Assembly (NCBI RefSeq): GCF_007833215.1
Contig: NZ_CP042239.1
Span: 3,904,001-3,968,000 of the forward strand
Length of the DNA: 64,000 bases
Direction of reading: 5' to 3'
DNA from: Sphingomonas suaedae
Lineage (GTDB): Bacteria; Pseudomonadota; Alphaproteobacteria; Sphingomonadales; Sphingomonadaceae
This document shows positions 3,950 to 44,194 of the stretch, one piece after another; positions within the stretch are counted from its first letter, which is position 1, and every line of letters starts with the position of its first letter. The notes beneath the pieces are model-generated. The model did no database searches and was not told the DNA's origin. It worked only from the letters and a program-made list of their open reading frames with translations. The position numbers and the translations under genes are program-made.

Positions 3950-5164
3950 CTAGCCTTGCTGGCGGATGCCCAGCACCAGCAGCCCGCCGAGCAGGGTGAG
4001 GACCGCGAGCACCAGCATCACCGCGCCGAAATCGCGCGGCGTGGCGAGCAGCCAGGTGAGCAAGGGGCCGGCGAGCGCGGGAAGCGTATTGGTGAGATTG
4101 ATGAGCCCCAGGTCGCGGCCCCGATGCTGCGGGCTCGGCAGCAACTGCATCGCGAAGCCCGAATGAATCGACAGGAAGACCGCCGATCCGAGCGCATAGA
4201 GCGCAAAGGCGATTGCCGCCGCGTTCCAGTCACGCGCAAGGCCCATGCCGATCAGCCCGAGCGCGGCGATCGTCGCGGCGGCGACCAGGAAGGGCTTGCG
4301 CCGCCCGATCCGGTCGGACCAGCGGCCGAGCAGCACCGCGACGGGGAGGGGGAGAAGATAGGCAACCGTCATCAGCTGGCCGATCGGGCCGATATGTTTG
4401 GAGGTCGGTGCGTCGGGTTCGATGCTGGCGAAATAGTAGAGAAGGTAGAGGCCGAGCACGGTGCCCGCGACCTGAACGAGCAGCCGCGCGGTCCAGGCGA
4501 TGGCGAGATCGCGGCCGAGCAGGCGGGCGGGCGCGGGAAGGGTGGACGCCGTGATGCGCGACCGAACGCGGAGCAGCGGAAGGACGCAGAGCAGAACTGC
4601 GGCGAAGACGAAGGCGAGCCGCGGCCCTTCGCCCGCGATGCCGAGCGCGATCATCAGCGCGGCGACGGCGGAGGCGAGCGGCGAGCCGAGCGCGATCAGG
4701 CCGCCTGCGACGCCCATCTGGTCGCCCGGAACCTCATCCGCCATGATCGCGAACAGCGGCGAGAGCAGTGCGTTGACCGCGATCTGGAACAGGATGATCG
4801 CGAGGATGATGCCGGTGGCGGTGCTGGCGAGCGCCACCGCTGCGAAAGACAAAGCGAGCAGCATGAGGCCGAGCAGCGCCCAGGGGCGGCGACCCTTCCC
4901 GGTGGCGCGCGCGCGGTCGCTCGCCCAGCCGAACGCGATGTTGGAAACGCTGGCCGTGAGTGCCCCCGCGATGACGGTGGCGGTGAACAGGCCGATCCGC
5001 CCGTCTTCCCCCGCGATGGCCGCGACCTTGACCGGCAGCAACAGGCTGAGCAGCGGGAGGAAGGCGATGACGCCGCCGGCATTGGCGAGCGCGACCAGCA
5101 GGATGAACCCGATCGAGCGCCGCCCGCCATGCGTGGTGCCGGTGCTCGCCGTCATCCTCTCCAT
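3950..5164 (-). CDS. Major facilitator superfamily transporter
   Basis: 404 residues with about 12 hydrophobic segments spread over the whole length. The loop FGWASDRARATGKGRRPW after the second helix is the MFS motif A region, and a second copy (LLGRWSDRIGRRKPFL) follows the middle of the protein. It follows the GH3 glycosidase by 40 bases on the same strand, so it probably imports the sugar that enzyme releases; this is inference. The start is uncertain: the ATG at 5164 is used here, but an ATG at 5155 is equally possible and neither has a well-spaced Shine-Dalgarno sequence. Confidence 0.82.
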   Translation of the reverse strand: MERMTASTGTTHGGRRSIGFILLVALANAGGVIAFLPLLSLLLPVKVAAIAGEDGRIGLFTATVIAGALTASVSNIAFGWASDRARATGKGRRPWALLGLMLLALSFAAVALASTATGIILAIILFQIAVNALLSPLFAIMADEVPGDQMGVAGGLIALGSPLASAVAALMIALGIAGEGPRLAFVFAAVLLCVLPLLRVRSRITASTLPAPARLLGRDLAIAWTARLLVQVAGTVLGLYLLYYFASIEPDAPTSKHIGPIGQLMTVAYLLPLPVAVLLGRWSDRIGRRKPFLVAAATIAALGLIGMGLARDWNAAAIAFALYALGSAVFLSIHSGFAMQLLPSPQHRGRDLGLINLTNTLPALAGPLLTWLLATPRDFGAVMLVLAVLTLLGGLLVLGIRQQG

Positions 5165-5204: not shown

Positions 5205-7484
5205 CTAGGGCTTCATCGTCGTGGCGTCGAGCGTCGTGGTGAGCGTCATCGACCGGTCGGTCGCATCCCTCGCGATGGCGACGCGATAGGTGCCGCCCGC
5301 GATGCGCCAGCCGGGCAGGCTGGTGTCATAGTCGGCGAGGATGCGCGGCTCGGCGGTCAGCGTCACACGGCGCGATTCGCCGGGGTTGAGCGTCACGCGC
5401 TGGAACCCGGCGAGGCGCATCGGCTTGTTCGATCCCTCGCGTGTCACATAGAGTTGCGGCACGTCGGCGCCTGCGCGCTTGCCGGTGTTGGTGACGGTGA
5501 AGCTGACCGTCAGCGTCTTGCCGCCGCTGACCTGCGGCTGGGCATAGGCGAAGCTGGTATAGCTGAGGCCGTGGCCGAAGGCGAAGAGCGGCGTGTTGCC
5601 CTGACGCTCGTACCAGCGATAGCCGACATCGCTGCCTTCAGGATATTTGACCGGGAAGGTTTTAAGGCTGAAATCGCCCGCTGCAGCCGGGTTGGCGGCG
5701 GCGTCGCGGGCAAGTCCGGTCAGCAGGTCGAGCCCCACCGGCGTCGGGCGCGGTGCCTGGCTCTCGCGCGCGGGGAAGGTGATCGGCAGGCGGCCCGAGG
5801 GGTTGACCTTGCCGGTCAGGATGTTGGCGATCGCCTCGCCGCCGCGCTGGCCGGGATACCAAGCCTGGAGCACTGCGGGGACGGCGTCGAGCCAGGGCAT
5901 CGTCACCGGGCCGCCCGTGGTGAGGACGGCGACGGTCTTTGGCTGGGCCTTGGCAACCGCCGCGATCAGTGCGTCCTGATGATCGGGCAGGCGCAGATTG
6001 GGGACGTCGTCCGCCTCGGTCGTCCATTGCGTCGCGAAGACGATGGCGATGTCGGCCTTGGTTGCGGCTTCCAGCGTCGCGTTCAGGTTGCGGCCGTCGG
6101 TGAATTCGATCGTCGCGCCCGGCGCCGCCTTGCGCAGCGCGGCGAGCGGGGAGGAGGCGTGATAGGTGATGCGCGCGAACGAGGCCGATCCGCCATAGGC
6201 GAGCGGGATCTCGATCGGCGCGCCGCCGACCGAACGCACCTGGCTCGACCCGCCGCCCGAGATCACGCCGACATCCGCGCCGCCGCCGATGACGAGGATC
6301 TTCTTCGCGGATGCTGCGAGCGGGAGGATGTCGCCTTCGTTCTTGAGCAGGACGATGCCTGCTTCGGCGGCGCGCTGCGCGACCTGTGCATTGGCGGCAT
6401 AATCGATCGGCTGGGCGGTGGCGGGCATGGGCGTGTCGAACGCGCCGGTGAGGATCAGGCCGGTCAGGTAGCGGGCGACCATATCGTCCAACCGCTTCAT
6501 CGGCACCTCGCCCTTTTCGACAGCGGCTTTGAGCGGCGCGGCGAAGAACATCGCCTTGTCCAGCTCTTGCCCCGATTGCTGGTCGAGACCCGCATTCGCC
6601 GCCTTCACCGTAGAATGAACGCCGCCCCAGTCGCTCATCACCCAGCCGGGGTAATTCCAGTCGCGCTTCAGCACCTGGTTGAGCAGGAAGTCGTTTTCCG
6701 ACGCCCAATGGCCGTTGACCTTGTTGTACGCGGCCATGACCGATCCGGGCTTGCCCTTTTCGATTGCGATCTGGAAGGCGAGCAGGTCGCTCTCGCGCAG
6801 CGCGGCCTCGTCGATCTGCGCATCGAGGACCATGCGGCCCGTTTCCTGCGCGTTGAGCGCGAAATGCTTGATCGTCGAGACGATTCGGTTCGACTGGACG
6901 CCCGCGATATGCGCCCCGGCCAATTCGCCCGCGAGCAGCGGATCTTCGCCCAGATATTCGAAGTTGCGCCCGCCCCATGGGTCGCGAGTCAGGTTGACGC
7001 CGCCCGCGAGCAGGACGTTGAAGCGCTTGGCGCGTGCCTCTGCGCCGATCATCGCACCGCCCGCGCGAGCGATCTCGGGATCGAAGCTCGCGGCTGTGGC
7101 GAGGCTGGAGGGCAGAGCGGTGGCGACATCGCCCTTGCGCTGCTCGACCTGATTCGCGACGCCGAGCGAGGCGTCGCTTTCGCGGACGATGGGAATGCCG
7201 ACGCGCGGCACGCCATCGATGTGACCGGCCGAGGGGATCAGTTCGTTCTGCGTCTTGCCGTCGGCCATGGGTGGAAACAGGCCGTGGACCAGCGCGATCT
7301 TTTCATCGAGCGTGAGCTTCGCGACGATCGAGTCGGCGCGCGCACGGGCCTGTTTTGGGGTAGCGACGGGCCTTGCTGAGGGTTTCTGGGCCGAGACTTT
7401 CGGGGCCTCTTGCGCCACCACTGCGGTGGAAGCGATGGCGCCGACCGCGCCAGCCGACAAGAGTGCGGCGATGAACCTCGACAT
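5205..7484 (-). CDS. Glycoside hydrolase family 3 beta-glucosidase-like enzyme, secreted
   Basis: 759 residues. The signal peptide ends near VVAQ. The GH3 N-terminal barrel shows NLTRDPWGGRNFEYLGEDP (about 164-182) and KHFALN (206-211). The nucleophile aspartate is in VMSDWGG (Asp285). The C-terminal domain holds LLKNEG, QAWYPGQRGGEA and a fibronectin-III-like tail (TVTNTGKRAGADVPQLYV). The fold and motifs fit a retaining beta-glucosidase or xylosidase in the periplasm. I chose the ATG at 7484 because GGAGAGG precedes it with good spacing and the signal peptide begins there. It is divergent from the large TonB receptor across an operator-rich region and probably shares LacI control. Confidence 0.9.
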   Translation of the reverse strand: MSRFIAALLSAGAVGAIASTAVVAQEAPKVSAQKPSARPVATPKQARARADSIVAKLTLDEKIALVHGLFPPMADGKTQNELIPSAGHIDGVPRVGIPIVRESDASLGVANQVEQRKGDVATALPSSLATAASFDPEIARAGGAMIGAEARAKRFNVLLAGGVNLTRDPWGGRNFEYLGEDPLLAGELAGAHIAGVQSNRIVSTIKHFALNAQETGRMVLDAQIDEAALRESDLLAFQIAIEKGKPGSVMAAYNKVNGHWASENDFLLNQVLKRDWNYPGWVMSDWGGVHSTVKAANAGLDQQSGQELDKAMFFAAPLKAAVEKGEVPMKRLDDMVARYLTGLILTGAFDTPMPATAQPIDYAANAQVAQRAAEAGIVLLKNEGDILPLAASAKKILVIGGGADVGVISGGGSSQVRSVGGAPIEIPLAYGGSASFARITYHASSPLAALRKAAPGATIEFTDGRNLNATLEAATKADIAIVFATQWTTEADDVPNLRLPDHQDALIAAVAKAQPKTVAVLTTGGPVTMPWLDAVPAVLQAWYPGQRGGEAIANILTGKVNPSGRLPITFPARESQAPRPTPVGLDLLTGLARDAAANPAAAGDFSLKTFPVKYPEGSDVGYRWYERQGNTPLFAFGHGLSYTSFAYAQPQVSGGKTLTVSFTVTNTGKRAGADVPQLYVTREGSNKPMRLAGFQRVTLNPGESRRVTLTAEPRILADYDTSLPGWRIAGGTYRVAIARDATDRSMTLTTTLDATTMKP

Positions 7485-7559
7485 CAATATTCCTCTCCAG
7501 AAGGTCGGCGCGCGTCGATTGTGCGCAGCCATATATCGCCACCAGACAGCATAAATTGG

Positions 7560-7567
7560 GAACGTTC
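7560..7567. promoter_or_regulatory. Candidate LacI-family operator 1 (GAACGTTC)
   Basis: Perfect 8-base palindrome with a central CpG, the usual core of LacI/GalR-family operators. It is one of three AACGTT-centred palindromes in 96 bases between the divergent GH3 gene and TonB receptor. A LacI-family gene lies at the end of the receptor operon. Confidence 0.45.
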
Positions 7568-7619
7568 ACAATAGCAGATTTCCGCGGTCGCGGGATGCTA
7601 TACGGCGTTCCGAGCCTGC

Positions 7620-7634
7620 TTGACAACGTTGTAC
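7620..7634 (+). promoter_or_regulatory. Candidate LacI-family operator 2 overlapping a -35-like TTGACA
   Basis: ACAACGTTGT (7623-7632) is a perfect 10-base palindrome with a central CpG. It overlaps a consensus TTGACA (7620-7625) facing the TonB receptor. No good -10 box is visible at the right spacing, so the promoter call is tentative. Binding here would block that promoter. Confidence 0.5.
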
Positions 7635-7647
7635 AACAGGTTCAAGT

Positions 7648-7655
7648 GAACGTTC
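7648..7655. promoter_or_regulatory. Candidate LacI-family operator 3 (GAACGTTC)
   Basis: Second exact copy of GAACGTTC, within the longer GTGAACGTTCTC, 48 bases upstream of the TonB receptor start. Its centre is 24 bases from the centre of operator 2. Confidence 0.45.
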
Positions 7656-7702
7656 TCAAAGCGAGCGCGAATGGCGCGCCGCTCTATGGGGAGGATTGGG
7701 GA

Positions 7703-10687
7703 ATGCGTGACCTTAAGGCGCGCGCGCTTTCGCGACTGGTGATCGGCGTTTCGACGCTGGCAATCGCGACGGCGCCGGCATTTGCACAGGAATCGGAAAC
7801 GGCCGCACCGGCGGATGAGGGCGAGGAAATCGTCGTCACCGGTATCCGGGCGAGCCTCGAAGCGTCGATGAACCTCAAGCGCGAGGCGCAGGGTGTCGTC
7901 GATGCCATCTCGGCCGAGGATATCGGCAAATTCCCCGACACCAACCTGGCGGAATCGCTTCAGCGCATCACCGGCGTGTCGATCGACCGCTCGAACGGCG
8001 AGGGTTCGACCGTCACCGTTCGCGGCTTCGGTCCTGAATTCAACCTGGTGACCCTGAACGGGCGCCAGATGCCGACCTCGACGCTCGGCGACGGCGCCAG
8101 CCCGCCCGCGTCGCGTTCGTTCGATTTCGCCAATCTCGCGTCCGAAGGCATCGCTGCGGTCGAGGTGTACAAGACCGGTCGCGCGTCGATCCCGTCGGGC
8201 GGCATCGGCTCGTCGATCAACATCAAGACGCCGCGCCCGCTAGACCGGCCGGGGATGCGCGGCAGCATCGCCGTGAAGGGCGTGTTCGACAGTTCGTATA
8301 ACGAGGGTGACGAGATCACGCCGGAAGTGTCGGGCATCTTCAGCGCGACGGCGATGGACGACAAGATCGGCATCCTGATCGCCGGCTCGTATCAGCGGCG
8401 CAAGGCGAGCAACAACAGCTACAACACCGACTGGCGGGACGGCTATCTCGGCTCCGAGAACAATTGGGGTTCGCTGCCGCGCAACGCTGCGCAGGAAAAT
8501 CGCCCCGAGGGCAATGATGTTTATGAAGTGCCGCAGAACGGTTCGTACAATCTCAACAATATCGACCGTGAGCGCATCAACGGCCAGGCGGTGTTGCAAT
8601 TCCGCCCGGTCGAGTCACTGACCGCGACGCTCGATTACACCTATTCGCGCAACACTGTCGAAGTCCGCAACAACAGCGTCGGCATCTGGTTCAACTTCAA
8701 CAACGTGTCGAGCGCCTGGACCGACGGCCCGGTCGCTGGGCCGATCTTCTATTCGGAAGCGTTCGGCGCGAGTGAGCGCAAGGATATTTCCTACAGCGGG
8801 TCGCTCGTTGCCAATCAGAGCGAAAATCACTCATTCGGCGGCAACCTGAAATGGGAAGCGCCGGGTGGCGTGACCGTCGAACTGGACGCCCATCATTCGA
8901 CCGCAGAGTCGAAGCCGACGAACGACTATGGCAGCAGTGTTTCGGTCGGCAACGCTGTGTTCGGCGTGGCCAACCAGACAATCAATTACGACACGCGCCT
9001 GCCAGTCATCTCCTATACGATGCACCCCGGCATTGATCCGCTGGACGCCTCGCTGGTCACGCCGACCGGAAATGCGTTCCGCAACGCCTATTTCCGCGAC
9101 GAGATCAACCAGTTCCGTCTCAGCGGCAGCTATGACCATGAGGGTGGCTTCCTGGATGGCATCGATTTCGGCATGTCGTACACCGAGAACAAGGTGCGAT
9201 CAGCCTATGGCTTCATCCAGAACGAAACCTGGAGCGGCGCGGGCCCGGCATCGGACATCCCCGACGACATCTTCACGCTGGTCAGCTTGCCCGACAAATT
9301 CGGCGGCATGGATGGCGCGGGGAGCATCATCCCAAGCTTCTACACGTTCGATTTCGAGCGGATGGTGGGTCTGATCGAGGGGCTGTACGGCACCTGCAGC
9401 AGCCCGCAACAGGGCGTGGCCGCACCCGGGACCTGCCTTGCCGACTATACGGTCGATCGGCGGATCACGGAAAAGACGCTGGCACCCTATGTCCAGTTCA
9501 ACGGTCGCTTCACGGCGTTCGGCAATGAGGGCCGCCTGATCGCTGGCCTGCGCTACGAGCATACGGGTATCGATTCGTCGGCGCTGGTTCCAATTCCCAA
9601 CGGCACGTCATGGGACGCCGCAAACGAGTTCTACATCAGCTATTCGGGTCAGCAGGACTTTTCGCGCTTCAAGGGGAGCTATGAAAACTGGTTGCCGTCG
9701 ATCGACTTCGACGTCTCGCCCCTCGAAAATGTCAAGCTGCGCGCCTCTTACAGCCACACCATCGCGCGCGCGGATTATGGCAGCCTTCAGGGTGGCCTGA
9801 CGCTCGACTCGCAGTTCCGGATCGCGTTCGGGACCGGCAGCCGCGGCAATCCCGGGCTGCTGCCCTACAAGTCCAAGAATATCGATCTGTCGGCCGAGTG
9901 GTATTACGGTCGCAACAGCTACATTTCGGCCGGTTTCTTCCACAAGAGCGTCGAGAACTTCATCGCGCAGGATCGCATCGACGAGAGCGCTTTCGAGTTG
10001 CGGACCGTCGCCGGCGGGCCGCGTTACCAGGCCGCCCTGGCAGCACTCGGCCCCAATGCGGGCGCGCAGGATATCCGCCAGTATATCTTCGACAATTTCC
10101 CGGCCTCCACCGTGCCGACCGGGACCGATCCTGCCGGTTACACGACCGGGCAGATCCTGGCGCTGCCCGAAGATCCGCTGTTGAACTTCCAGATCAACAC
10201 GCCGGTCAACAGCGACCAGACCGGCAAGCTCTATGGCTTTGAATTCGCTGTGCAGCACAGCTTCTGGGATACCGGCTTTGGCGTAATCCTGAATTATACG
10301 ATCGTCCGCGGCGACGCGACATATGACAACACGCTGCCAGCCAATACGGGGCAGCTTGGGCTTGACCCGCAGTTCGCGCTGACCGGGCTGAGCGACAGTG
10401 CCAACGCGGTGCTGTTCTACGACAAGGGTGGGTTCCAGGCACGCGTCGCATATAACTGGCGCGAAAAGTTCCTCGCCGGAACTGGGGCCAATCCCTTCTA
10501 TGTCGAGGATTATGGCCAGATCGATGCCAGCGCGAGCTATGAATTCACAAAAGGCCTGACGGTCTTTGGCGAAGTCATCAATCTCACCGGCGAAAGTCGG
10601 CGCGGGCATCGTCGTTCGGACCGCAACGTCTATTTCGCTTCGCCTGGCTATGCCCGCTACGCAGCCGGCGTGCGGTTCAGCTTCTAA
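7703..10687 (+). CDS. Large TonB-dependent receptor of a carbohydrate-type locus
   Basis: 994 residues. The signal peptide ends APAFAQ. A short linker leads to a TonB-box-like segment ([11 protein letters not shown]), the plug domain ([43 protein letters not shown]), and a long barrel ending in VRFSF. The IGKFPDTN and LNGRQMP signature is typical of the large receptors linked to sugar or peptide uptake in sphingomonads, Caulobacter and Xanthomonas. The start is the ATG at 7703, with GGGGAGG 8 bases upstream; in-frame codons further upstream run through the operator region. It leads a cluster with halogenase-like, SapC, cupin and LacI genes. Confidence 0.92.
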
Positions 10688-10702
10688 GAGGCACCTCCCC
10701 GT

Positions 10703-10733
10703 GGCCACCCTCTTGCGAGGGTGGCCTTTTTTT
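10703..10733 (+). terminator. Intrinsic terminator between receptor and halogenase genes
   Basis: A 10-base-pair perfect stem (GGCCACCCTC / GAGGGTGGCC) with loop TTGC is followed by seven T residues. It begins 15 bases after the receptor stop codon, so downstream genes depend on read-through or on their own promoter. Confidence 0.85.
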
Positions 10734-10799
10734 CGGGGAGAGGCCAGACTGGATGAAGTCGAATTTGCGCTGCGCGAAAGACTTGGCGCGGCAACCGGA

Positions 10800-12353
10800 A
10801 TGACAGGCGTGGGTGAAACGGTGCAACGGATCGTCATTGTCGGCGGGGGAACCGCCGGATGGCTTTCCGCGTGTCTGATTGCTGCGCAGGCGAACCGGAG
10901 CGCCGAACGGCCCTTGTCGGTCACGCTGATCGAATCCCCGGACATTCCCACGATCGGCGTGGGCGAGGGAACATGGCCTACGATGCGGCGGACACTACGC
11001 CGGATCGGCATCGCCGAGAGTGAATTTCTGACCAGTTGCGACGCCGCGTTCAAACAGGGGTCGCGCTTCATCGGCTGGGCGAACGGTTCGCCGGGCGATG
11101 CCTATTACCACCCGTTCGGCGCGCCGGTCGACGGCAGCGCGCGCGAGATTGTCGGCGCGTGGCGCGATGCGGCGGGGAACCAGCCCTTTGCCGCCGCCGT
11201 CTCGCCGCAGCCGGGCGTGTGCGCCCTGCATCTCGCGCCGCGGCAGCGGGCGATGCCCGACTATGGCGGGGCGCTCAACTATGCCTATCATCTCGACGCG
11301 GCGAAGCTCGCTGCCCTGCTCGCGCGCCACGGCGTCGAGCGGCTGGGCGTGCGGCGTGTCCGCGGCCATGTGACCGGCGTGGATGCGCGCGAGGACGGCG
11401 ATATCGCCGCGGTGCGCGTGCGCGAGGGCGGGGCGGTGGAGGGCGATCTGTTCATCGACTGCACCGGACATGGGTCGATGCTGATCGGCGGGCATTTCGG
11501 CGTACCGTTCGTCGATCGCAGCGATGTGCTGTTCAACGATCGCGCGCTGGCGGTGCAGGTGCCGGTCGAGCCGGACAGCCCGATCGCGTCACAGACCGAT
11601 GCGACTGCGCATGAGGCGGGGTGGATCTGGGACATCGGCCTGCCGACGCGGCGTGGCGTGGGGTGCGTCTATTCCTCGGCGCATATCGATGACGATGGGG
11701 CGGCGGCTGCGCTGGGCGCCTATCTGGGCCGCGACCCCGCCGACCTTGGCGCGCGCAAGCTGGCCTTTCGCTCGGGGCATCGCGAACGCTTCTGGGAGCG
11801 CAACTGCCTCGCCATCGGCCTGTCGGCAGGGTTTCTGGAGCCGCTCGAGGCGTCGGCAATCGTGCTGATCGAACTCTCGCTCGACGCGCTGATCGGGGAT
11901 TTCCCCGTCACGCGCGACACGATGGATATCCATGCGCGTCGCTTCAATGCGCTGTTCCGCTATCGCTGGGACCGGATCGTCGAGTTTTTGAAGCTCCATT
12001 ATGTGCTGAGCGCGCGCACTGAACCTTATTGGCGTGCGCATCGCGACCCGACGACGATTCCCGAGCGGCTGGCCGAACTGCTCGCGCTGTGGCGCCACCA
12101 GCCACCGTCGGCGAGCGACTTTCCGGCGATGGACGAGATTTTTCCGGCGGCGAGCCATCAATATGTGCTGTACGGCATGGGCTATCCGCCGCCGCCGTCC
12201 GGCCCGATCGCGACCGATACGCAAGCGGCCGCGCGGGCGATGGCTCAGACCGTACAGCGTGGTCGGACGTTGACCGCCAGCCTGCCCACCAACCGCGCCT
12301 ATCTTGACGCGCTGCGCGCCGCCGCGCCACGCTCGGCGCTGGAGACCCTATGA
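10800..12353 (+). CDS. Tryptophan-halogenase-like flavoprotein 1 (atypical motifs)
   Basis: 517 residues, a usual length for flavin-dependent halogenases. The FAD-binding GGGTAG is at 15-20 and GVGEGTWP at 53-60. Lys85 (DAAFKQ) aligns with the catalytic lysine of PrnA/RebH, and Glu350 (EPLEAS) with the conserved glutamate. The WxWxIP signature is changed to WIWDIG (275-280), and the serine usually after the glutamate is Ala351. It may halogenate an unknown substrate or have lost chemistry; such genes beside TonB receptors are common and their natural substrates are not settled. The start ATG has only a weak ribosome site. Its stop overlaps sapC by four bases (ATGA). Confidence 0.85.
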
Positions 12354-13072
12354 CCGACCATCATGTCCTGACCGCCGAAAACCATCGTGACCTGCGCGTC
12401 CGCACCGACCGCGACGCCGCGCTCGGCGATGCGGTGATGTCGTGCGTGACGACGCCCGATGAGTTCCGCCGCGTCCAGAGCCACTACCCGATCCTGTTCC
12501 GCCGCAATGTCGAACGCGACGAATTCGTGGCGCTGGCACTGTTCGGGTTCGAGGATGGCGAGAATCTGTTTCTGGAGGACGGGCGCTGGGACGCGGACTA
12601 TGTGCCGCTGGCGATCGATATCCAGCCGTTCCTGATCGGCGCACCGGCGGCGGGCGGCACCGCCAAACAGGTGCATGTCGATATGGCCAGCCCGCGCATT
12701 GCCGCGCCCGACGGCGAGGGGGTGCGGGTGTTCGACGACCATGGCCGACCGACCCCCTATCTGGAGACGATCGCCGAGCAACTGGGCGCGCTGGACGCCG
12801 GGTGGCAGGGATCAGCGGACTTTTTCGCCGCGCTGCGCCGCCACGAATTGCTCGAACCGCTGACGCTGGAGATCACGCTGGACGATGGATCGACCAACCG
12901 GCTGGTGGGGTTCCATGTCATCGATGAGGAGCGGCTGCGCGGGCTGGATGGCGACGCGCTGGGCGAACTGCACCGCGACGGGCATTTGATGCCGCTGTTC
13001 ATGGCGATGGCGTCGCTCGGCAACCTCTCCGCGCTGATCGCGCGCCGGAATCGGCGGATGGCGCATGGCTGA
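12350..13072 (+). CDS. SapC family protein
   Basis: 240 residues. The N-terminal HPILFRR-like segment ([10 protein letters not shown]), the [13 protein letters not shown] stretch and the PFLIG motif match the SapC family (named from Campylobacter S-layer work). In sphingomonads and Caulobacter these recur between halogenase-like and cupin genes behind TonB receptors, and their role is unknown. There is no signal peptide, so it is probably cytoplasmic. It overlaps halogenase 1 by four bases and the cupin gene by eight, so translation is coupled. Confidence 0.88.
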
Positions 13073-14096
13073 GGCCGATCCCGGGATTCTTCAGGGGCTG
13101 GCGCAGGTCCGCGAGGTCGAGGCGGCCGATGCGGCGGCGTTGGATGCGCTGCTGCGCGAGGCGACTGCGCCGTTCATCGTGCGCGGGCTGGTGCGCGACT
13201 GGCCGCTGGTTCAGGCCGGACTGGAGTCCGGACGTGCAGCGCGCGACTATCTGTTGCGCCATCGCCGCGACGCGCAGTTCACCGTCGCGGTCGGCGCGCC
13301 GGGCAGCGACGGGCGGCTGTTCTACGATGCGGCGATGGGGATGAATTTCCGCACGTTGCGCGCCAAGCTGCCGGAGATTTTCGCGAAGATCGATGCGGAC
13401 GAGGGCGATCCCGCCGCGCCGCCCATCTATCTCGCATCGATCGATGTGCATGATTTTTTTCAGGGGCTGCACGAAGCCAATCATGTCGATCTGGGCGAGC
13501 GCCGGTGCCTTGCCAGCATCTGGATCGGCACGCGCACGCGGATCGCGGCGCATAATGATTTTCCGGCGAACCTTGCCTGTGTCGCGGCGGGGCGGCGGCG
13601 TTTTACGCTGTTTCCGCCCGAGCAGTTCCGCAATCTCTATCTGGGCCCGGTCGACAATACGCCTGCCGGGCGTGCGATCAGCATGGTGGATTTCCGGGCG
13701 CCCGATTTCGCCGCGCATCCGAAGTTTCGCGTGGCACTCGATCATGCGCAAGTGGCAGAGATGGAGCCGGGCGATGCGCTGCACATCCCATCAATGTGGT
13801 ATCACCACGTCGAGGGGCTGGAGCCGTTCAACGTGCTGGTGAACTATTGGTGGCGCGAGGTGCCGATGTGGCTGGGACAGCCGCAGGACGCGCTCAACCA
13901 TGCGATGCTGTCGATCCGCGACCTGCCGCCCGAGGCGAAGGCGCATTGGCGCGCGCTGTTCGACCATTATGTCTTCGACAATGATACGAGCGTCACCGCG
14001 CATATTCCGGAAGGCGGGCGCGGCATTCTCGATCCGATGACTCCCGAGGCGGCGTCGCGAATCCGCTCTTATCTGCTGCGGCAACTGGCCCGGTGA
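13065..14096 (+). CDS. Cupin-8 / JmjC-like Fe(II) 2-oxoglutarate oxygenase
   Basis: 343 residues. The double-stranded beta-helix shows the HxD metal motif His163-Asn-Asp165 (AAHNDFP) and the distal metal histidine in IPSMWYHHVE (His247 or His248), followed by NVLVNYWW. This is the FIH/JmjC-type cupin-8 family, whose studied members hydroxylate protein or small-molecule substrates using 2-oxoglutarate. The substrate here is unknown. It sits between SapC and halogenase 2 with an 8-base overlap upstream, inside the TonB-receptor operon. Confidence 0.88.
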   Translation: MAEADPGILQGLAQVREVEAADAAALDALLREATAPFIVRGLVRDWPLVQAGLESGRAARDYLLRHRRDAQFTVAVGAPGSDGRLFYDAAMGMNFRTLRAKLPEIFAKIDADEGDPAAPPIYLASIDVHDFFQGLHEANHVDLGERRCLASIWIGTRTRIAAHNDFPANLACVAAGRRRFTLFPPEQFRNLYLGPVDNTPAGRAISMVDFRAPDFAAHPKFRVALDHAQVAEMEPGDALHIPSMWYHHVEGLEPFNVLVNYWWREVPMWLGQPQDALNHAMLSIRDLPPEAKAHWRALFDHYVFDNDTSVTAHIPEGGRGILDPMTPEAASRIRSYLLRQLAR

Positions 14097-14107
14097 AGGG
14101 ACATGGT

Positions 14108-15595
14108 ATGAAACGCATCGTCGTCGCAGGCGGCGGCACCGCAGGCTGGATGGCGGCGGCGGCGATCGCGCGTACCATGGGGCGTACCGTCGCGGTGACA
14201 TTGGTCGAATCCGATGCGATCGGGACGATCGGGGTGGGCGAATCCACCATTCCGCCGCTGGTCACCTATAACCGGTTGCTCGGCATCAACGAGGCCGAGT
14301 TCATGCGCGCGACCCAGGCGACGTTCAAGCTGGGCATCCTGTTCGACAATTGGAAGGTCGATGGCGACCGCTATTTCCACAGCTTCGGCTTTACGGGGAA
14401 GGATCACTGGTCGGCGGGGTTCCAGCATTTCTGGCTGGCCGGGCGCAGCAAGGGGCATCAACAGCCCTATGACGATTATTGCCTGGAACTGGTTGCGGCG
14501 CTTGAGGGTAAATTCGCGCAGCTTCCGGACAATCGCGTCAACTATGCCTATCAGCTCGATTCGGGCCTCTATGCGCGGTTTCTGCGGGGCATGGGCGAGA
14601 AGGATGGCGTCACGCGGATCGAGGGGAAGATCGCGCGCGTCGAACTGGATGGCGAAAGCGGTGACATTGCCGCGCTTGGGCTGGACGGTGGCCGCCGGAT
14701 CGAGGGCGACCTGTTCCTCGACTGCACCGGTTTTCGCGCGCTGCTGATCGAGGGGGCGCTGCACGCAGGCTATGACGACTGGACCCATTGGCTGCCGTGC
14801 GACAGCGCCATTGCGCTCCAGACCCCGAACGTCCGCCCGCCGGTGCCGTACACCCGCGCGATGGCGCATGATGCGGGCTGGCAATGGCGCATTCCGCTTC
14901 AGCACCGCACCGGCAACGGCATCGTCTATTGCAGCCGTTACCTCGACCATGACGCGGCGCTCGAGCGGTTGCTCGGCAATCTGGAGGGCGAGCCGCTGAC
15001 GCCGCCCAACAAGATCCGCTTTCAGACCGGCGCTCGGCGCAAGCAATGGCATCGCAACTGCGTGGCGATCGGGCTGTCGGGCGGGTTCATGGAGCCGCTC
15101 GAATCGACATCGATCCATTTGATTCAGCGCGCGGTGCTGCGCGTGATCCGGATGATGCCCGCGCAGGGCCGGGTCAGCGAACGCGATATCGCCGAGTTCA
15201 ACGAGCAGCAGTTCCAGGACATGGAGCAGATTCGCGACTTCCTGATCCTCCATTACAAGGTCACCGACCGGCGCGATTCCTCCTTCTGGCGGCAATGCGC
15301 GGCGATGGAGGTGCCCGACAGCCTGACCCAGAAGATCGAGCTGTTCCGCGAGACGGGTCGCGTCTTCCGGCGCAATGAAGAACTGTTCGCCGAGAATAGC
15401 TGGGTCCAGGTGATGATGGGGCAGGGGATCGAGCCGCAGAGCTGGCACCCGATCGCCGAGAAGCTGACCGATGCCGAGCTCGACAAGACGCTGACCCATA
15501 TCCGCGAGGATGTGCGCCGTACGGTCAATGGCCTGCCCGCCCATGCCGATTATGTCGCCCGCTATTGCGGCGCTGCCGAACCAGCGGCGGCCTGA
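14108..15595 (+). CDS. Tryptophan-halogenase-like flavoprotein 2 (canonical motifs)
   Basis: 495 residues. GGGTAGW is at 8-14 and GVGESTIP at 42-49. Lys74 (ATFKLG) corresponds to the catalytic lysine, the full WxWxIP motif appears as WQWRIP (258-263), and MEPLESTS carries Glu332-Ser333. All residues expected of an active flavin-dependent halogenase are present, unlike its paralogue upstream. It would need FADH2 from a reductase not seen nearby. I chose the ATG at 14108 because GAAGGGA precedes it with good spacing, rather than the GTG at 14093 that overlaps the cupin stop. The LacI gene follows after 7 bases. Confidence 0.9.
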   Translation: MKRIVVAGGGTAGWMAAAAIARTMGRTVAVTLVESDAIGTIGVGESTIPPLVTYNRLLGINEAEFMRATQATFKLGILFDNWKVDGDRYFHSFGFTGKDHWSAGFQHFWLAGRSKGHQQPYDDYCLELVAALEGKFAQLPDNRVNYAYQLDSGLYARFLRGMGEKDGVTRIEGKIARVELDGESGDIAALGLDGGRRIEGDLFLDCTGFRALLIEGALHAGYDDWTHWLPCDSAIALQTPNVRPPVPYTRAMAHDAGWQWRIPLQHRTGNGIVYCSRYLDHDAALERLLGNLEGEPLTPPNKIRFQTGARRKQWHRNCVAIGLSGGFMEPLESTSIHLIQRAVLRVIRMMPAQGRVSERDIAEFNEQQFQDMEQIRDFLILHYKVTDRRDSSFWRQCAAMEVPDSLTQKIELFRETGRVFRRNEELFAENSWVQVMMGQGIEPQSWHPIAEKLTDAELDKTLTHIREDVRRTVNGLPAHADYVARYCGAAEPAAA

Positions 15596-15602
15596 CCCAG
15601 GC

Positions 15603-16649
15603 ATGGCACGACGCAAACAGGCGGTCACGATCAAGCATGTCGCAGCGGACGCCGGGGTGTCGCTGCAGACGGTGAGTCGCGTCATCAACAAGGAACCGAA
15701 TGTCCGGCCCGAGATGATGGCGCGGGTGCAGGAATCGATCGCGAAGCTCGGTTATGTCCCGTCGATCGCGGCGCAGCGGATGAGCGGGTCGCGCTCCTAT
15801 CTCATCATGGCGCTCAACGACCGCGAGCGGACGATCGAGGGGTGGAAATCGCGCGAGGGCACCGACTGGGTCGATCAGATGCTGCTCGGCGGGATGCTGA
15901 CCTGCGCCGAACATGGCTATCGTCTGATCGTCGAGCTGGTCGACACGCATAGCGACCATATCGAGCGGGAGCTGTCCGCCGCGATCGCCGCGCTCCAGCC
16001 CGATGGCGTGCTGCTGACCCCGCCGCACTCGGCCAATCCGGAGATTATCGCGCTGCTCGATGCTGCGGGGATCGAGATGGCGCGGATCGGGTCGCTGACC
16101 CCGGGGCCGGGCTTCCGGCTGACCATGGGCGACGACCTTGCCGCGGCGATGGCGACGCGGCACCTGATCGAGCTCGGTCACACGCGGATCGGCTTCATCG
16201 CCGGGTCGCTGGAATATGAACTCAGCGGCTGGCGCGTCGATGGCTGGCGCGCGGCGATGAACGAGGCGGGCCTTTCGACCGAAGGAATGCTGGGGCAAGG
16301 CGATTTCAGCATCGAATCTGGCCGCATATGCGCCCCGCAGCTGATCGACGCCGGCGCCACCGCGATCATCGCCAGCAATGACCAGATGGCGATGGCGACG
16401 CTGGAGGTCGCGCGGGCGCGCCGCCTGTCGGTGCCCGGCGACCTGTCGATCGTCAGCTTCGACGATACGCCTGTGGTCCGCTTCGCCCACCCGCCGCTGA
16501 CTGCGATCGAGCAGCCGATTGCGGCGGTGACGGCGCGCGCGGTTGAGCTGATCATCGGAGCGCGCTCCTGTCGCGCCGCTCTGGATACGCCTGTTGTCGT
16601 CACGCCGTCGCTGACGGTCCGCGAATCGACCGCGCCGCCACGATCGTAA
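15603..16649 (+). CDS. LacI family transcriptional regulator
   Basis: 348 residues. The N-terminal helix-turn-helix (TIKHVAADAGVSLQTVSRVI, about 9-28) and hinge (GYVPSIAAQRMS) are typical. They are followed by the periplasmic-binding-like sugar sensor domain with HLIELGHTRIGFIAG and the C-terminal PLTAIEQP. It should bind a sugar or derivative and repress or activate the locus. It is the last gene of the receptor-halogenase-SapC-cupin-halogenase cluster and a natural candidate to bind the three AACGTT palindromes at 7560-7655. The start ATG is supported by the HTH position; upstream in-frame codons overlap halogenase 2. Confidence 0.93.
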   Translation: MARRKQAVTIKHVAADAGVSLQTVSRVINKEPNVRPEMMARVQESIAKLGYVPSIAAQRMSGSRSYLIMALNDRERTIEGWKSREGTDWVDQMLLGGMLTCAEHGYRLIVELVDTHSDHIERELSAAIAALQPDGVLLTPPHSANPEIIALLDAAGIEMARIGSLTPGPGFRLTMGDDLAAAMATRHLIELGHTRIGFIAGSLEYELSGWRVDGWRAAMNEAGLSTEGMLGQGDFSIESGRICAPQLIDAGATAIIASNDQMAMATLEVARARRLSVPGDLSIVSFDDTPVVRFAHPPLTAIEQPIAAVTARAVELIIGARSCRAALDTPVVVTPSLTVRESTAPPRS

Positions 16650-16831
16650 CGAACCCGATCCAAAACAGGCGCGATTACGTCCCATTCCCGATCCATCTCC
16701 GTTCGTCGCCAAAGGCACCCCGCCCTAAGCTGCGCCCACAGCAAATGGGTCCGCAACGGATGGGATCATCGCCCCGACATACCCATGTTCTGGTAACGTT
16801 CCCCGATCGCGCGGCGCGGTGGGAAGAGCGG

Positions 16832-18430
16832 ATGACGATCGCCAACTCCCTGTTCTACGGGGACAATCTGGATGTGATGCGGACGCATTTCCCGGACGGG
16901 TGCGTCGATCTTGTCTATCTAGACCCGCCGTTCAACTCGAACGCCAATTACAATATCCTGTTCCGATCCCCGACCGGCAGCGATGCCGATGCGCAGGTTC
17001 AGGCGTTCGAGGACAGCTGGCACTGGAACGACGCGGCGGAGGATGCCTTCGATCAGGTGATGCAGAGCGGGCACGCCCGCGCGTTCGACCTGCTCGCTGC
17101 CTTTCGCAGCGCGCTCGGCACCAACGACATGATGGCGTACCTCGCGATGATGGCGATCCGCCTGATCGAGCTTCACCGCGTGCTCAAGGCGCAGGGCAGC
17201 CTCTATCTCCACTGCGACCCGACCGCCAGCCACTACCTCAAACTGCTGCTCGACGCGGTGTTCGGGGCCGAGCGGTTCCGCAATGAGATTACCTGGAAAC
17301 GCACTGCCGCGCACAGCGATGGCGGCCGCTACGGACGCAACACCGACACGATCCTGTTCTACGCAAAGGGCGCGAAGCCGCGCTGGAACCCGCTCTTCAC
17401 CCCCTATGACGCCGATTATGCCGCGCGTTTCCGCAACCGCGATCCCGACGGGCGGCTGTGGATGGACGACAATCTGACCGCAAAGGGGCTGTCGGGCGGC
17501 GGCTACAGCTATGCGTACAAGGGCGTGACCTCCTATTGGCGGATGCCGGTCGAGACGATGGAGCGACTGGACCGGGAGGGGCGGCTGCACTTCACCCGCA
17601 CCGGCGGCATCCGTCTCAAACGCTATCTGGACGAGGCGCGCGGGTCGCCGGTCCAGGCGCTGTGGACCGACATCCCCGCGCTCAATTCACAGGCGCAGGA
17701 GCGGCTCGGCTATCCCACGCAAAAGCCGATCGCGCTGCTGGAGCGGATCATCGCCGCCTCGTCCGACCCCGGCGATCTGGTGCTCGACCCCTTTTGCGGT
17801 TGTGGCACGGCGGTCCATGCCGCGGAAAAGCTCGGGCGGCGCTGGGCCGGGATCGACGTCACCCACCTCGCCATCGGCCTGATCGAAAAGCGGATGCGCG
17901 CCGCCTTTCCCGGCGTGGCACTGCGGGTGGAGGGGACGCCGCGCGACTGCGCCGCCGCCGCCGACCTCGCCCGGCGCGACCCGTACCAGTTTCAGTGGTG
18001 GGCGGTGGCGATGGTCGACGCGGTGCCGTTCGGCAGGCGGCGCAAGGGCGCGGATGGCGGGATCGACGGCATCATCTATTTCCGGCCCGAACGCCGCCAG
18101 ACCGCGCGGGCGCTGGTGTCGGTCAAGGGCGGTGAGCGCGTCGGCGTCGGCGTGGTCCGCGACCTCCACTCGGCAATGGAGCGCGAACGCGCCCCGATCG
18201 GCGTCGTCCTCACCCGCTCCACCCCCTCCGCCCCGATGCTGCGCGAAGCGGCGGCGGTGGGTCGGTTCCATAGCGAGGCGACCGGGCGCAGCTATGCGCG
18301 GATGCAGATTCTGACGGTAGAGGAACTGTTCAGGGGGCGACGGCCGGACATTCCGCTGGTGGACCATGCGGCGGCGTTTCGGACTGCGCCGAGGGAGCGG
18401 GTGGGAGGGGAGCAGGCGGTGTTGTTCTAG
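16832..18430 (+). CDS. DNA methyltransferase (beta-type order) fused to Mrr-like domain
   Basis: 532 residues. The catalytic motif DPPF (31-34) comes before the AdoMet-binding FCGCG (321-325), the order of beta-class N4-cytosine/N6-adenine methyltransferases; TQKP precedes the second. After about residue 385 a second domain shows GADGGIDG (406-413) and VSVKGG (429-434), the layout of a PD-(D/E)xK Mrr-like fold with serine where E or Q is usual before x-K. No separate restriction or specificity gene adjoins. It could be an orphan methylase or a single-chain modification-restriction protein; target site unknown. The start ATG has GGGAAGAG upstream. Confidence 0.82.
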   Translation: MTIANSLFYGDNLDVMRTHFPDGCVDLVYLDPPFNSNANYNILFRSPTGSDADAQVQAFEDSWHWNDAAEDAFDQVMQSGHARAFDLLAAFRSALGTNDMMAYLAMMAIRLIELHRVLKAQGSLYLHCDPTASHYLKLLLDAVFGAERFRNEITWKRTAAHSDGGRYGRNTDTILFYAKGAKPRWNPLFTPYDADYAARFRNRDPDGRLWMDDNLTAKGLSGGGYSYAYKGVTSYWRMPVETMERLDREGRLHFTRTGGIRLKRYLDEARGSPVQALWTDIPALNSQAQERLGYPTQKPIALLERIIAASSDPGDLVLDPFCGCGTAVHAAEKLGRRWAGIDVTHLAIGLIEKRMRAAFPGVALRVEGTPRDCAAAADLARRDPYQFQWWAVAMVDAVPFGRRRKGADGGIDGIIYFRPERRQTARALVSVKGGERVGVGVVRDLHSAMERERAPIGVVLTRSTPSAPMLREAAAVGRFHSEATGRSYARMQILTVEELFRGRRPDIPLVDHAAAFRTAPRERVGGEQAVLF

Positions 18431-43340: not shown

Positions 43341-44194
43341 TCGGTGTGGCCGGTCATCCGTTTCGCTTTCGCGATGCTGCGCCAGGCCAGCGACTTGATC
43401 AGATTCTGGCGGGGGTAGCGGGCGGGGGCAGCGGGGGTCATCCCCGCCTTCCGCAGCAACCGGTTGAAGGCGTGCGCATCGGCCTCGCGATAGCTCCACT
43501 CCGATCGCCACGTGACCGACAGCGAGATCGACATCGCGTCGCCATTCTGCACCCAGTGCGGCGCCTTGACCGGGACATAGATCGCGTCGCCCGGGGTCAA
43601 CCGGATCGGCGTCCCCTTTGCCGCGAAGCTGTCCTGGAACGGCAGGTTGCGATGGCCGCCCTCATGGAAGGTTTCCTGAAGGTGGCTGGGGACCAGTTCG
43701 GGATCGGCGGCGGGGAACACGGTCATCACCTTTTTGCCGCGCAGCTGGATTAGGATATTGTGCTCGGGGTCTATGTGGAACGGGGTGACCGCGCCGGGCG
43801 AGGAGACGAAGATGAACGCCTCGCGCTTGAGCATGGCGCCGGTGCGGGTGGCTACCAGCGGCTCGATCTCGTCGAGAACCTCGTCCAGCAGCGCGCGATA
43901 CACCGGATCCTGATCGACGAACTTCAGCACCATCCACGACCCGTTCTGCTCGATCGAGCGGATCGAGTCCTCGACCGAGAGGCCATTGTGCCGGATGTCC
44001 GCGGGATCGATGCCGATCGGCAGGTTGGCGAGATTCTGCTCGACATCGACCGGGCGGATGCGCTGCGACAGCGCGACCAGTTCGTCGAGCTCGAACAGCG
44101 GATGGCCGCACAGGCCATGGGCGATCGTGCCGGGCCGCTCGGGATAGAGCGCTGCAAAGGCGGCGCGCGCGTCATCGTCGAACACGGGCTTCAT
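43337..44194 (-). CDS. Cupin-8 / JmjC-like oxygenase (second in window)
   Basis: 285 residues. The metal site is His140-x-Asp142 (PFHIDPEHN) with distal His213 (APHWVQNGD), within a double-stranded beta-helix containing LIQLRGKKVMTVFP and TPGDAIYVP. It is a likely Fe(II)/2-oxoglutarate oxygenase. It is sandwiched between two FemAB-like genes with four-base ATGA overlaps on both sides, so the three proteins are made together and probably act on one substrate. Confidence 0.85.
   Translation of the reverse strand: MKPVFDDDARAAFAALYPERPGTIAHGLCGHPLFELDELVALSQRIRPVDVEQNLANLPIGIDPADIRHNGLSVEDSIRSIEQNGSWMVLKFVDQDPVYRALLDEVLDEIEPLVATRTGAMLKREAFIFVSSPGAVTPFHIDPEHNILIQLRGKKVMTVFPAADPELVPSHLQETFHEGGHRNLPFQDSFAAKGTPIRLTPGDAIYVPVKAPHWVQNGDAMSISLSVTWRSEWSYREADAHAFNRLLRKAGMTPAAPARYPRQNLIKSLAWRSIAKAKRMTGHTE

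Follow-up and report, generated by a model that had tools for sequence, protein, structure and literature searches.

What do two flavin-dependent halogenases, a SapC protein and an oxygenase act on when their genes stand directly behind that of an outer-membrane receptor? The question is raised by a locus of Sphingomonas suaedae, studied here in a window of 64,000 nucleotides (NZ_CP042239.1, 3,904,001-3,968,000, forward strand; coordinates below are window positions). A TonB-dependent receptor (TBDR) is followed by a first flavin-dependent halogenase-like gene (FDHa), SapC, an Fe/2-oxoglutarate (Fe/2OG) oxygenase of the Cupin_8 family, a second flavin-dependent halogenase-like gene (FDHb) and a LacI-family regulator (Table 1). 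Genes were identified by Pfam and NCBIfam profile matches, and signal peptides were judged by eye from the translations. A preliminary description of the locus had proposed uptake combined with modification of the imported ligand, the receptor or an associated peptide. The framing holds; among the three targets the ligand seems the least likely, and the receptor is favored, if unproved. Our tentative answer, which we rate at a little below even, is that the enzyme block acts in the cytosol on the receptor precursor, within a LacI-controlled carbohydrate uptake locus.

The core of five genes, from receptor to FDHb, is conserved across three proteobacterial classes, wider than the preliminary description had claimed. 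The exact order TBDR-FDHa-SapC-Cupin_8-FDHb on one strand is found in 41 of 80 named loci, comprising 24 gamma-, 9 beta- and 8 alphaproteobacterial loci. These 80 are the best of 586 relatives to an FDHb alignment and not a random sample; the alignment was built from five SapC-cluster members and one FDH-array member, which biases proportions among the 80 upward and leaves the gene order itself unbiased. SapC, Cupin_8 and a halogenase occur together in 62 of the 80 (8 sets are cut by contig ends), and in 5 the halogenase adjoins no mapped partner, away from contig ends. The set, whole or without FDHa, is present in Sphingomonas, Sphingopyxis, Alteromonas, Shewanella, Colwellia, Massilia, Duganella and other genera; one record (L311) of Asticcacaulis, a member of the Caulobacteraceae, has the set without FDHa. 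A sample of 398 genomes from the whole phylum had SapC in 138. When 20 SapC loci were chosen outside the order of the window, 8 stood beside a receptor with partners, 3 of them in the exact five-gene order (L163, L172, L176), and 12 did not. The accompanying genes vary: within the fetched 20 kb, the 41 full-core loci have a relative of the window's LacI in 22 cases, of its GH3 in 16 and of its permease of the major facilitator superfamily (MFS) in 6. In Teredinibacter waterburyi (L303) two receptor-enzyme sets stand in tandem, each with its own enzymes, the second without FDHa.

Among nearer relatives (61 genomes: 37 of the genus, its own included, and 24 from the order), SapC is present in 42, the halogenase family in 46 (45 above the cut-off) and Cupin_8 in 37 (36 above the cut-off). 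Cupin_8 lies directly downstream on the same strand for 45 of 98 SapC matches, and 45 of 72 Cupin_8 matches scoring 116 bits or more are directly preceded by SapC; both counts omit two short SapC fragments in one genome (G059) and weaker Cupin_8 matches. Recurrence of the SapC/Cupin_8/FDH set is far beyond chance. The expectation that it recurs near receptors in sphingomonads was borne out in Sphingomonas and Sphingopyxis, and the outcome that would have spoken against the preliminary description, a failure to co-occur with this receptor type in relatives, was looked for and co-occurrence was found. The control genome, C. vibrioides, has the SapC, halogenase, Cupin_8 and receptor families, as judged by presence only. 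The arrangement is one of several, as a map of families in 100 chosen 20-kb loci illustrates. The full order TBDR-FDH-SapC-Cupin_8-FDH-LacI recurs in L099, L104, L109, L111, L137, L138 and L139. Elsewhere receptors are accompanied by part of the set, or by arrays of one to four halogenases, at times with Cupin_8, and numerous SapC genes are solitary. The genome of the window (G000) holds 3 SapC genes, 18 receptors of the TIGR01782 subfamily above the cut-off and 17 halogenase matches counted as 14 genes; some of its receptors have one to three adjoining halogenases (L062, L065, L071, L072, L073), others none.

How the core is packed may bear on its expression. The preliminary description placed six genes on one strand, which strong family scores confirm, and described the five behind the receptor as tightly packed or overlapping. 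This is the case: FDHa overlaps SapC by 4 bp (12350-12353), SapC overlaps Cupin_8 by 8 bp (13065-13072), and Cupin_8 overlaps FDHb by 4 bp if FDHb starts at GTG 14093 (ATG 14108 is a possible alternative); the LacI gene begins at ATG 15603, after the FDHb stop at 15595. The receptor stop at 10687 is followed by a gap of 112 bp, which holds a terminator-like hairpin, and then by ATG 10800, to which the start of FDHa is assigned in a reading frame that opens at 10566. Median gaps, measured to the profile start at core junctions only, are 94-136 bp from the receptor to the first enzyme and 11-21 bp at the three common enzyme junctions. Within 10 kb, 7 hairpin-plus-T sites of this pattern were found and 6.3 expected, the one behind the receptor having the longest stem. 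In the mapped loci, 70 of 119 receptor-to-partner gaps contain such a hairpin. After merging of identical stretches, and over a constant 130 bp 3' of each receptor, terminators follow 79 of 131 receptors that have partners directly downstream (1.3 in shuffled sequences), 14 of 49 without partners (0.3) and 8 of 22 whose partners lie elsewhere in the vicinity (0.0). By the same pattern, therefore, the enzymes stand behind a terminator more often than partnerless receptors end in one. None of 243 gaps inside the enzyme block holds a terminator, a count that tells little, as most of these gaps are too short for one; the contrast with partnerless receptors is the more useful control. The output of such an arrangement is probably much receptor and little enzyme.

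Receptor and enzymes also diverge together. Over 82 sets, receptor distances correlate with those of SapC (r = 0.88), Cupin_8 (0.81) and FDHb (0.70), and none of 999 permutations gave correlations as high. Five genomes carry two sets, 4 of them comparable. Without exception in these 4, an FDHb is more similar to one from a set of another genome (67-98%) than to its paralogue in the same genome (51-54%).

FDHa, FDHb and Cupin_8 look active, as far as their conserved motifs can tell. FDHb has GGGTAGW (flavin adenine dinucleotide, FAD), FK (Lys), GFMEPLEST (Glu) and WQWRIP, the last of the WxWxIP type; the roles of these motifs we take from the literature on PrnA-type enzymes. FDHa keeps the Lys and has the Glu motif as GFLEPLEAS, with WIWDIGL (WxWDIGL) in place of WxWxIP, and it is assigned as FDH-like by its family profile only. 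The Lys column is K in 110 of 126 halogenases. Across all mapped loci, 78 of 82 FDHa have the Lys pattern and all 82 the Glu pattern; for FDHb the figures are 230 and 245 of 248, with members of both groups picked by their tryptophan motif, so that degenerate ones are excluded, and with overlapping loci not merged. Some loci with two to four halogenases have a degenerate one beside intact ones (L065:12010-13419 and L073:5124-6500, both without the Lys and the Glu motif; L141:9722-11140, without the Lys), and these are possible pseudo-enzymes. The HxD...H of Cupin_8 (H163, D165, H247), which we take to be the metal ligands of an Fe(II)/2OG oxygenase, is invariant in 127 of 127 distinct sequences. 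In the PDB, the nearest relative of FDHb is Xcc4156 (6y1w), with BrvH (6frl) third; that of FDHa is 9ltb (E 8.9e-206), in a group that also includes 2pyx and 9lu2. The best match of Cupin_8 is factor inhibiting HIF (FIH; E 6e-16, residues 161-268).

No relative was found for SapC in the PDB by sequence; its structure model is confident, yet no recognizable solved fold was found, and the best hit in a viral structure library (E 0.041) is no match. A winged helix in its C-terminal part, indicated by weak Foldseek hits, was supported neither by the domain model nor by Pfam at E values up to 10. Of the 12 receptor-free SapC loci outside the order, 5 (L170, L175, L166, L162, L180) have SapC next to two-partner secretion (ShlB) genes with giant open reading frames (ORFs) or to an RTX protein, or have other giant exported-type proteins within a few kb of it; for the remaining 7, the neighbors were covered by a bulk scan or in part. 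The bulk scan (43 ORFs) gave FAD-linked oxidase 4 times, outer-membrane efflux protein 3 times and ShlB twice. No halogenase or Cupin_8 gene was found within 20 kb of these stand-alone SapC genes.

From these observations a model can be proposed for the maturation of the receptor. An inducer would release LacI from the control region, receptor mRNA would be made in excess, and a fraction of transcription would read through the terminator to yield FDHa, SapC, Cupin_8 and FDHb at low levels. None of the four shows an export signal by eye, so the cytosol would be their site of action and the still unfolded receptor precursor, which has a signal-peptide-like stretch at its N-terminus, their target. 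SapC would bind or present the precursor, Cupin_8 would hydroxylate a side chain and the halogenases would modify aromatic side chains; the modified receptor would then be exported by Sec and inserted into the outer membrane. There it would take up beta-glucoside or beta-glucan oligomers, with the exported GH3 cutting and the MFS permease importing the product. The receptor is favored as target because it is the constant large exported partner of the core, while LacI, GH3 and MFS vary; because its distances correlate with those of the enzymes, most strongly with SapC; because a terminator separates it from the enzymes in many loci; because 5 of 12 receptor-free SapC loci have genes for secretion or for giant exported-type proteins nearby; and because FIH, the closest match of Cupin_8, hydroxylates proteins. 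The frequency of an Asn-Trp-Arg (NWR) motif in enzyme-linked receptors, given below, is a further argument, if suggestive only.

Several observations weigh against this model. Receptors linked to the enzymes (88) were compared column by column with unlinked ones (44), after 8 within 1150 bp of a locus end had been dropped and duplicates merged. An earlier contrast (61 linked, 11 unlinked) had pointed to Trp919, which the larger one weakened: the residue is W in 73 of the 88 linked receptors, and 15 of the 44 unlinked ones have it without a neighboring enzyme. The receptor tree has only 14 changes of enzyme linkage; when it is taken into account, W919 follows linkage in 1.5 of 12 independent pairs against 0.6, which places it 98th of 288 columns. 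The tree-aware test thus gave no support to W919 as the residue that follows the enzymes. Asn918 ranks second of the 288 columns (4.6 against 0.0), behind Phe753. The motif NWR, residues 918-920 in the receptor of the window, is present in 71 of 88 linked and 8 of 44 unlinked receptors, and in all 30 receptors that have both SapC and Cupin_8 within 1150 bp. Asn-Trp-Arg is suggested as the best candidate for a modified site, as a lead only, because it was chosen post hoc among 288 columns and the NW pair (4.4 against 0.3) involves fewer than six differing pairs, which cannot reach 0.05. No receptor residue clearly tracks the enzymes once the tree is allowed for. FDHa has been gained or lost in 14 changes among 85 receptors linked to SapC and Cupin_8, and no aromatic residue clearly follows it (51 receptors whose set includes FDHa, against 34 whose SapC-Cupin_8 set lacks it; 22 further linked receptors were left out of this contrast). 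Moreover, 52 of the 131 partner-linked receptors have no terminator by the pattern used, in counts that ignore kinship; exact nearest neighbors agree in only 32-37 of the 82 sets; and the precursor would have to be caught before export. Operons co-diverge by co-inheritance whatever their enzymes act on, and a terminator fits plain co-regulation as well. Our confidence is limited because each of the arguments for the receptor, from its constancy, the co-divergence, the terminator and the context of SapC, fits co-regulation too. A more specific form of the model is possible, if rather doubtful: the halogenases and a JmjC-type oxygenase, all guided by SapC, would oxidize or halogenate receptor side chains before export, possibly at Asn918-Trp919, and so tune carbohydrate binding or conceal the receptor from the phages and bacteriocins that exploit receptors of this kind. 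Orphan indole-accepting halogenases would thereby have their native role.

The strongest rival leaves the receptor merely co-regulated, with the enzymes making or changing a small aromatic metabolite, a signal or a protectant, in the cytosol of cells growing on sugar. LacI, receptor and enzymes in a common operon would fit this, FDHb resembles Xcc4156, and other members of the FDH family are metabolite enzymes by the names of their PDB matches. BrvH, the other relative of FDHb, is reported to brominate free indole, if slowly, and halogenases of such type can act on small molecules, which counts against a protein substrate. The core, as mapped for seven families, contains no other biosynthetic gene, however; paralogous sets in one cell keep their own FDHb, which a common metabolite would not need, and SapC also adjoins exported-type proteins. 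We regard this rival as unlikely, while giving it real weight. That the enzymes change the imported ligand, for example the phenolic aglycone of a plant beta-glucoside, before its catabolism is improbable. Sphingomonas is often plant-associated, and several genomes have GH3, GH1, GH16 and MFS genes beside the core; the core is, however, also common in the marine genera Alteromonas, Colwellia and Shewanella, where plant phenolics are unlikely as a common nutrient, and halogenating a nutrient would be metabolically odd. The enzymes look cytosolic and GH3 looks exported, by eye, so that an oligosaccharide would probably be cut before it reached the cytosol, which makes the ligand seem the least likely of the three targets.

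Two further explanations keep a surface protein in play and have an equally small chance of being right. If SapC were a common adaptor, the enzymes could modify another exported or surface partner encoded elsewhere. The five receptor-free loci with secretion or giant exported-type genes would be accounted for in this way, but these loci show no FDH or Cupin_8 gene within 20 kb, and within the core the constant large exported protein is the receptor. Alternatively, the FDH-like proteins and SapC may be mainly non-catalytic helpers in the folding or export of the receptor, as the degenerate halogenases beside intact ones might suggest; against this, the Lys and Glu patterns are kept in most of the motif-picked FDHa and FDHb, and the metal ligands of Cupin_8 in all its sequences. 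Maturation of the receptor by the enzymes is the explanation that we continue to prefer.

The receptor also belongs to a setting of carbohydrate uptake, probably of beta-glucosides or beta-glucans, as judged from the families GH3, GH1, GH16 and MFS that are common in the flanks of the core. Among 75 flank ORFs, taken from 15 loci where the core is present in full or for the most part, MFS_1 was found 8 times and MFS_2 5 times (with possible overlap), GH3 7 times (5 with an Exop_C domain), GH1 4 times, LacI 4 times and GH16 twice, along with one glucokinase and one Entner-Doudoroff-type dehydratase. In the window, GH3, MFS and LacI surround the receptor, as in a TonB-dependent carbohydrate utilization locus. 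GH3 and MFS run divergently from a control region shared with the receptor, both on the - strand, in agreement with the preliminary description. The best NCBIfam models for GH3, both below their cut-offs, are alpha-L-arabinopyranosidase and beta-glucosidase, and the signal-peptide-like N-terminus at ATG 7484 indicates that it is probably exported. No SusD-like partner appeared among the families from general scans, of which 25 of 50 flank families were shown and none was a search aimed at SusD.

The divergent GH3/receptor region contains three palindromes centered on AACGTT. Such palindromes are present in 13 of 14 Sphingomonas loci with LacI selected for inspection, the window included (the exception is L103). 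Where the receptor is enzyme-linked, such sites lie 5' of it in 16 of 35 cases with LacI nearby and in 6 of 66 without; for unlinked receptors the counts are 0 of 3 with LacI and 5 of 51 without. Loci were not merged in these counts, and short loci can hide a LacI; 3 of 4 gammaproteobacterial loci inspected have no such site. With one mismatch allowed, the pattern is not enriched in the window (5 matches against 2.9 expected; 17 of 100 shuffles have as many), and its two exact matches both fall within the divergent region. The case for operators is therefore based on conservation across loci and not on enrichment. In Sphingomonas, LacI probably controls both arms through these putative operators. 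A scan of 7000-17000 for sigma-70 promoters found none.

Table 1. Features of the locus, in window positions, with the profile scores or observations on which each assignment is based.
Feature	Position	Strand	Basis or remark
MFS permease, divergent arm	3950..5164	-	PF07690 86 bits
GH3 glycosidase	5205..7532 (likely start ATG 7484)	-	PF01915 197 bits, PF00933 119 bits
LacI-type operator-like palindrome TTGGGAACGTTCACAA	7556..7571		similar sites 5' of receptor in orthologous loci
Third AACGTT palindrome TTGACAACGTTGTACA	7620..7635		also present in L099
LacI-type operator-like palindrome AAGTGAACGTTCTCAA	7644..7659		pattern match and orthologous loci
TonB-dependent receptor, TIGR01782 subfamily, 994 aa	7703..10687	+	628 bits
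Terminator-like hairpin then T7, between receptor and FDHa	10703..10726	+	10-pair stem
FDHa, flavin-dependent halogenase-like	10800..12353	+	PF04820 417 bits
SapC, 240 aa	12350..13072	+	PF07277 225 bits, model 1-220 of 220 covered
Cupin_8 Fe/2OG oxygenase	13065..14096	+	218 bits
FDHb, flavin-dependent halogenase-like	14093..15595	+	PF04820 622 bits
LacI-family regulator	15603..16649	+	Peripla_BP_3 PF13377 116 bits, LacI HTH PF00356 53 bits

Just 3' of the LacI gene, an ORF on the + strand (16745-18430) resembles adenine-specific DNA methyltransferases such as CcrM over residues ~317-388, below cut-offs. A weak Cupin_8 match (43499-43852, - strand, 36.9 bits, E 7e-9) lies apart from the cluster.

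The layout of the locus has counterparts in known systems. Carbohydrate utilization loci with TonB-dependent receptors in Xanthomonas and Caulobacter reportedly group receptor, glycosidase, permease and regulator around a common control region, as is the case here; the SapC/Cupin_8/halogenase block is not known to be part of that description. A paper on such loci does not use the word "halogenase" (PMC1790865). BrvH and Xcc4156 are indole-accepting halogenases related to FDHb, for which the fixed genomic setting is the feature added here. The native substrates of BrvH and of the Xanthomonas halogenases are given as unknown or unidentified, and the source region of BrvH holds a second halogenase gene, 42.7% identical (PMC5945002, PMC7336383). 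In the main texts, "receptor" is absent from both papers, "transporter" from PMC5945002 and "TonB" from PMC7336383. Transcripts of Colwellia and phage halogenases have been described, with speculation on virus-receptor interactions (PMC11337851); the "SapC" of PMC4911050 is the name of a clay. No paper that combines SapC, tryptophan halogenase and TonB-dependent receptor, and no description of the operon, was found in the accessible texts of the literature searched, whose scope did not extend to subscription papers and preprints. Within that literature, which is not proof of novelty, the enzyme block is strongly conserved and undescribed.

Halogenases that have been studied with their substrates stated as unknown are thus provided with a constant partner, a conserved operon and a probable stoichiometry, and a single proteomics experiment could answer the question of their substrate. 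Should the receptor prove to be the substrate, the locus would represent a new kind of outer-membrane protein modification, widespread in environmental bacteria. The enzymes can themselves be placed among known ones: FDHa with the group of 9ltb, 2pyx and 9lu2, by chain names and sequence match alone (9ltb being a strong match), and Cupin_8 with FIH and the JmjC protein hydroxylases, of which it matches the catalytic part only, with its HxD...H kept. A further likeness is to the pathways of ribosomally synthesized and post-translationally modified peptides (RiPPs). These pathways modify peptides, and halogenases that act on peptides exist. There, as here, the gene of an exported product is followed by a terminator and then by modifying enzymes, which are made at a lower level there and probably here as well. 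The difference is that the gaps of the core seem to leave no room for a short precursor gene, and that the supposed product is a 994-aa receptor of the outer membrane.

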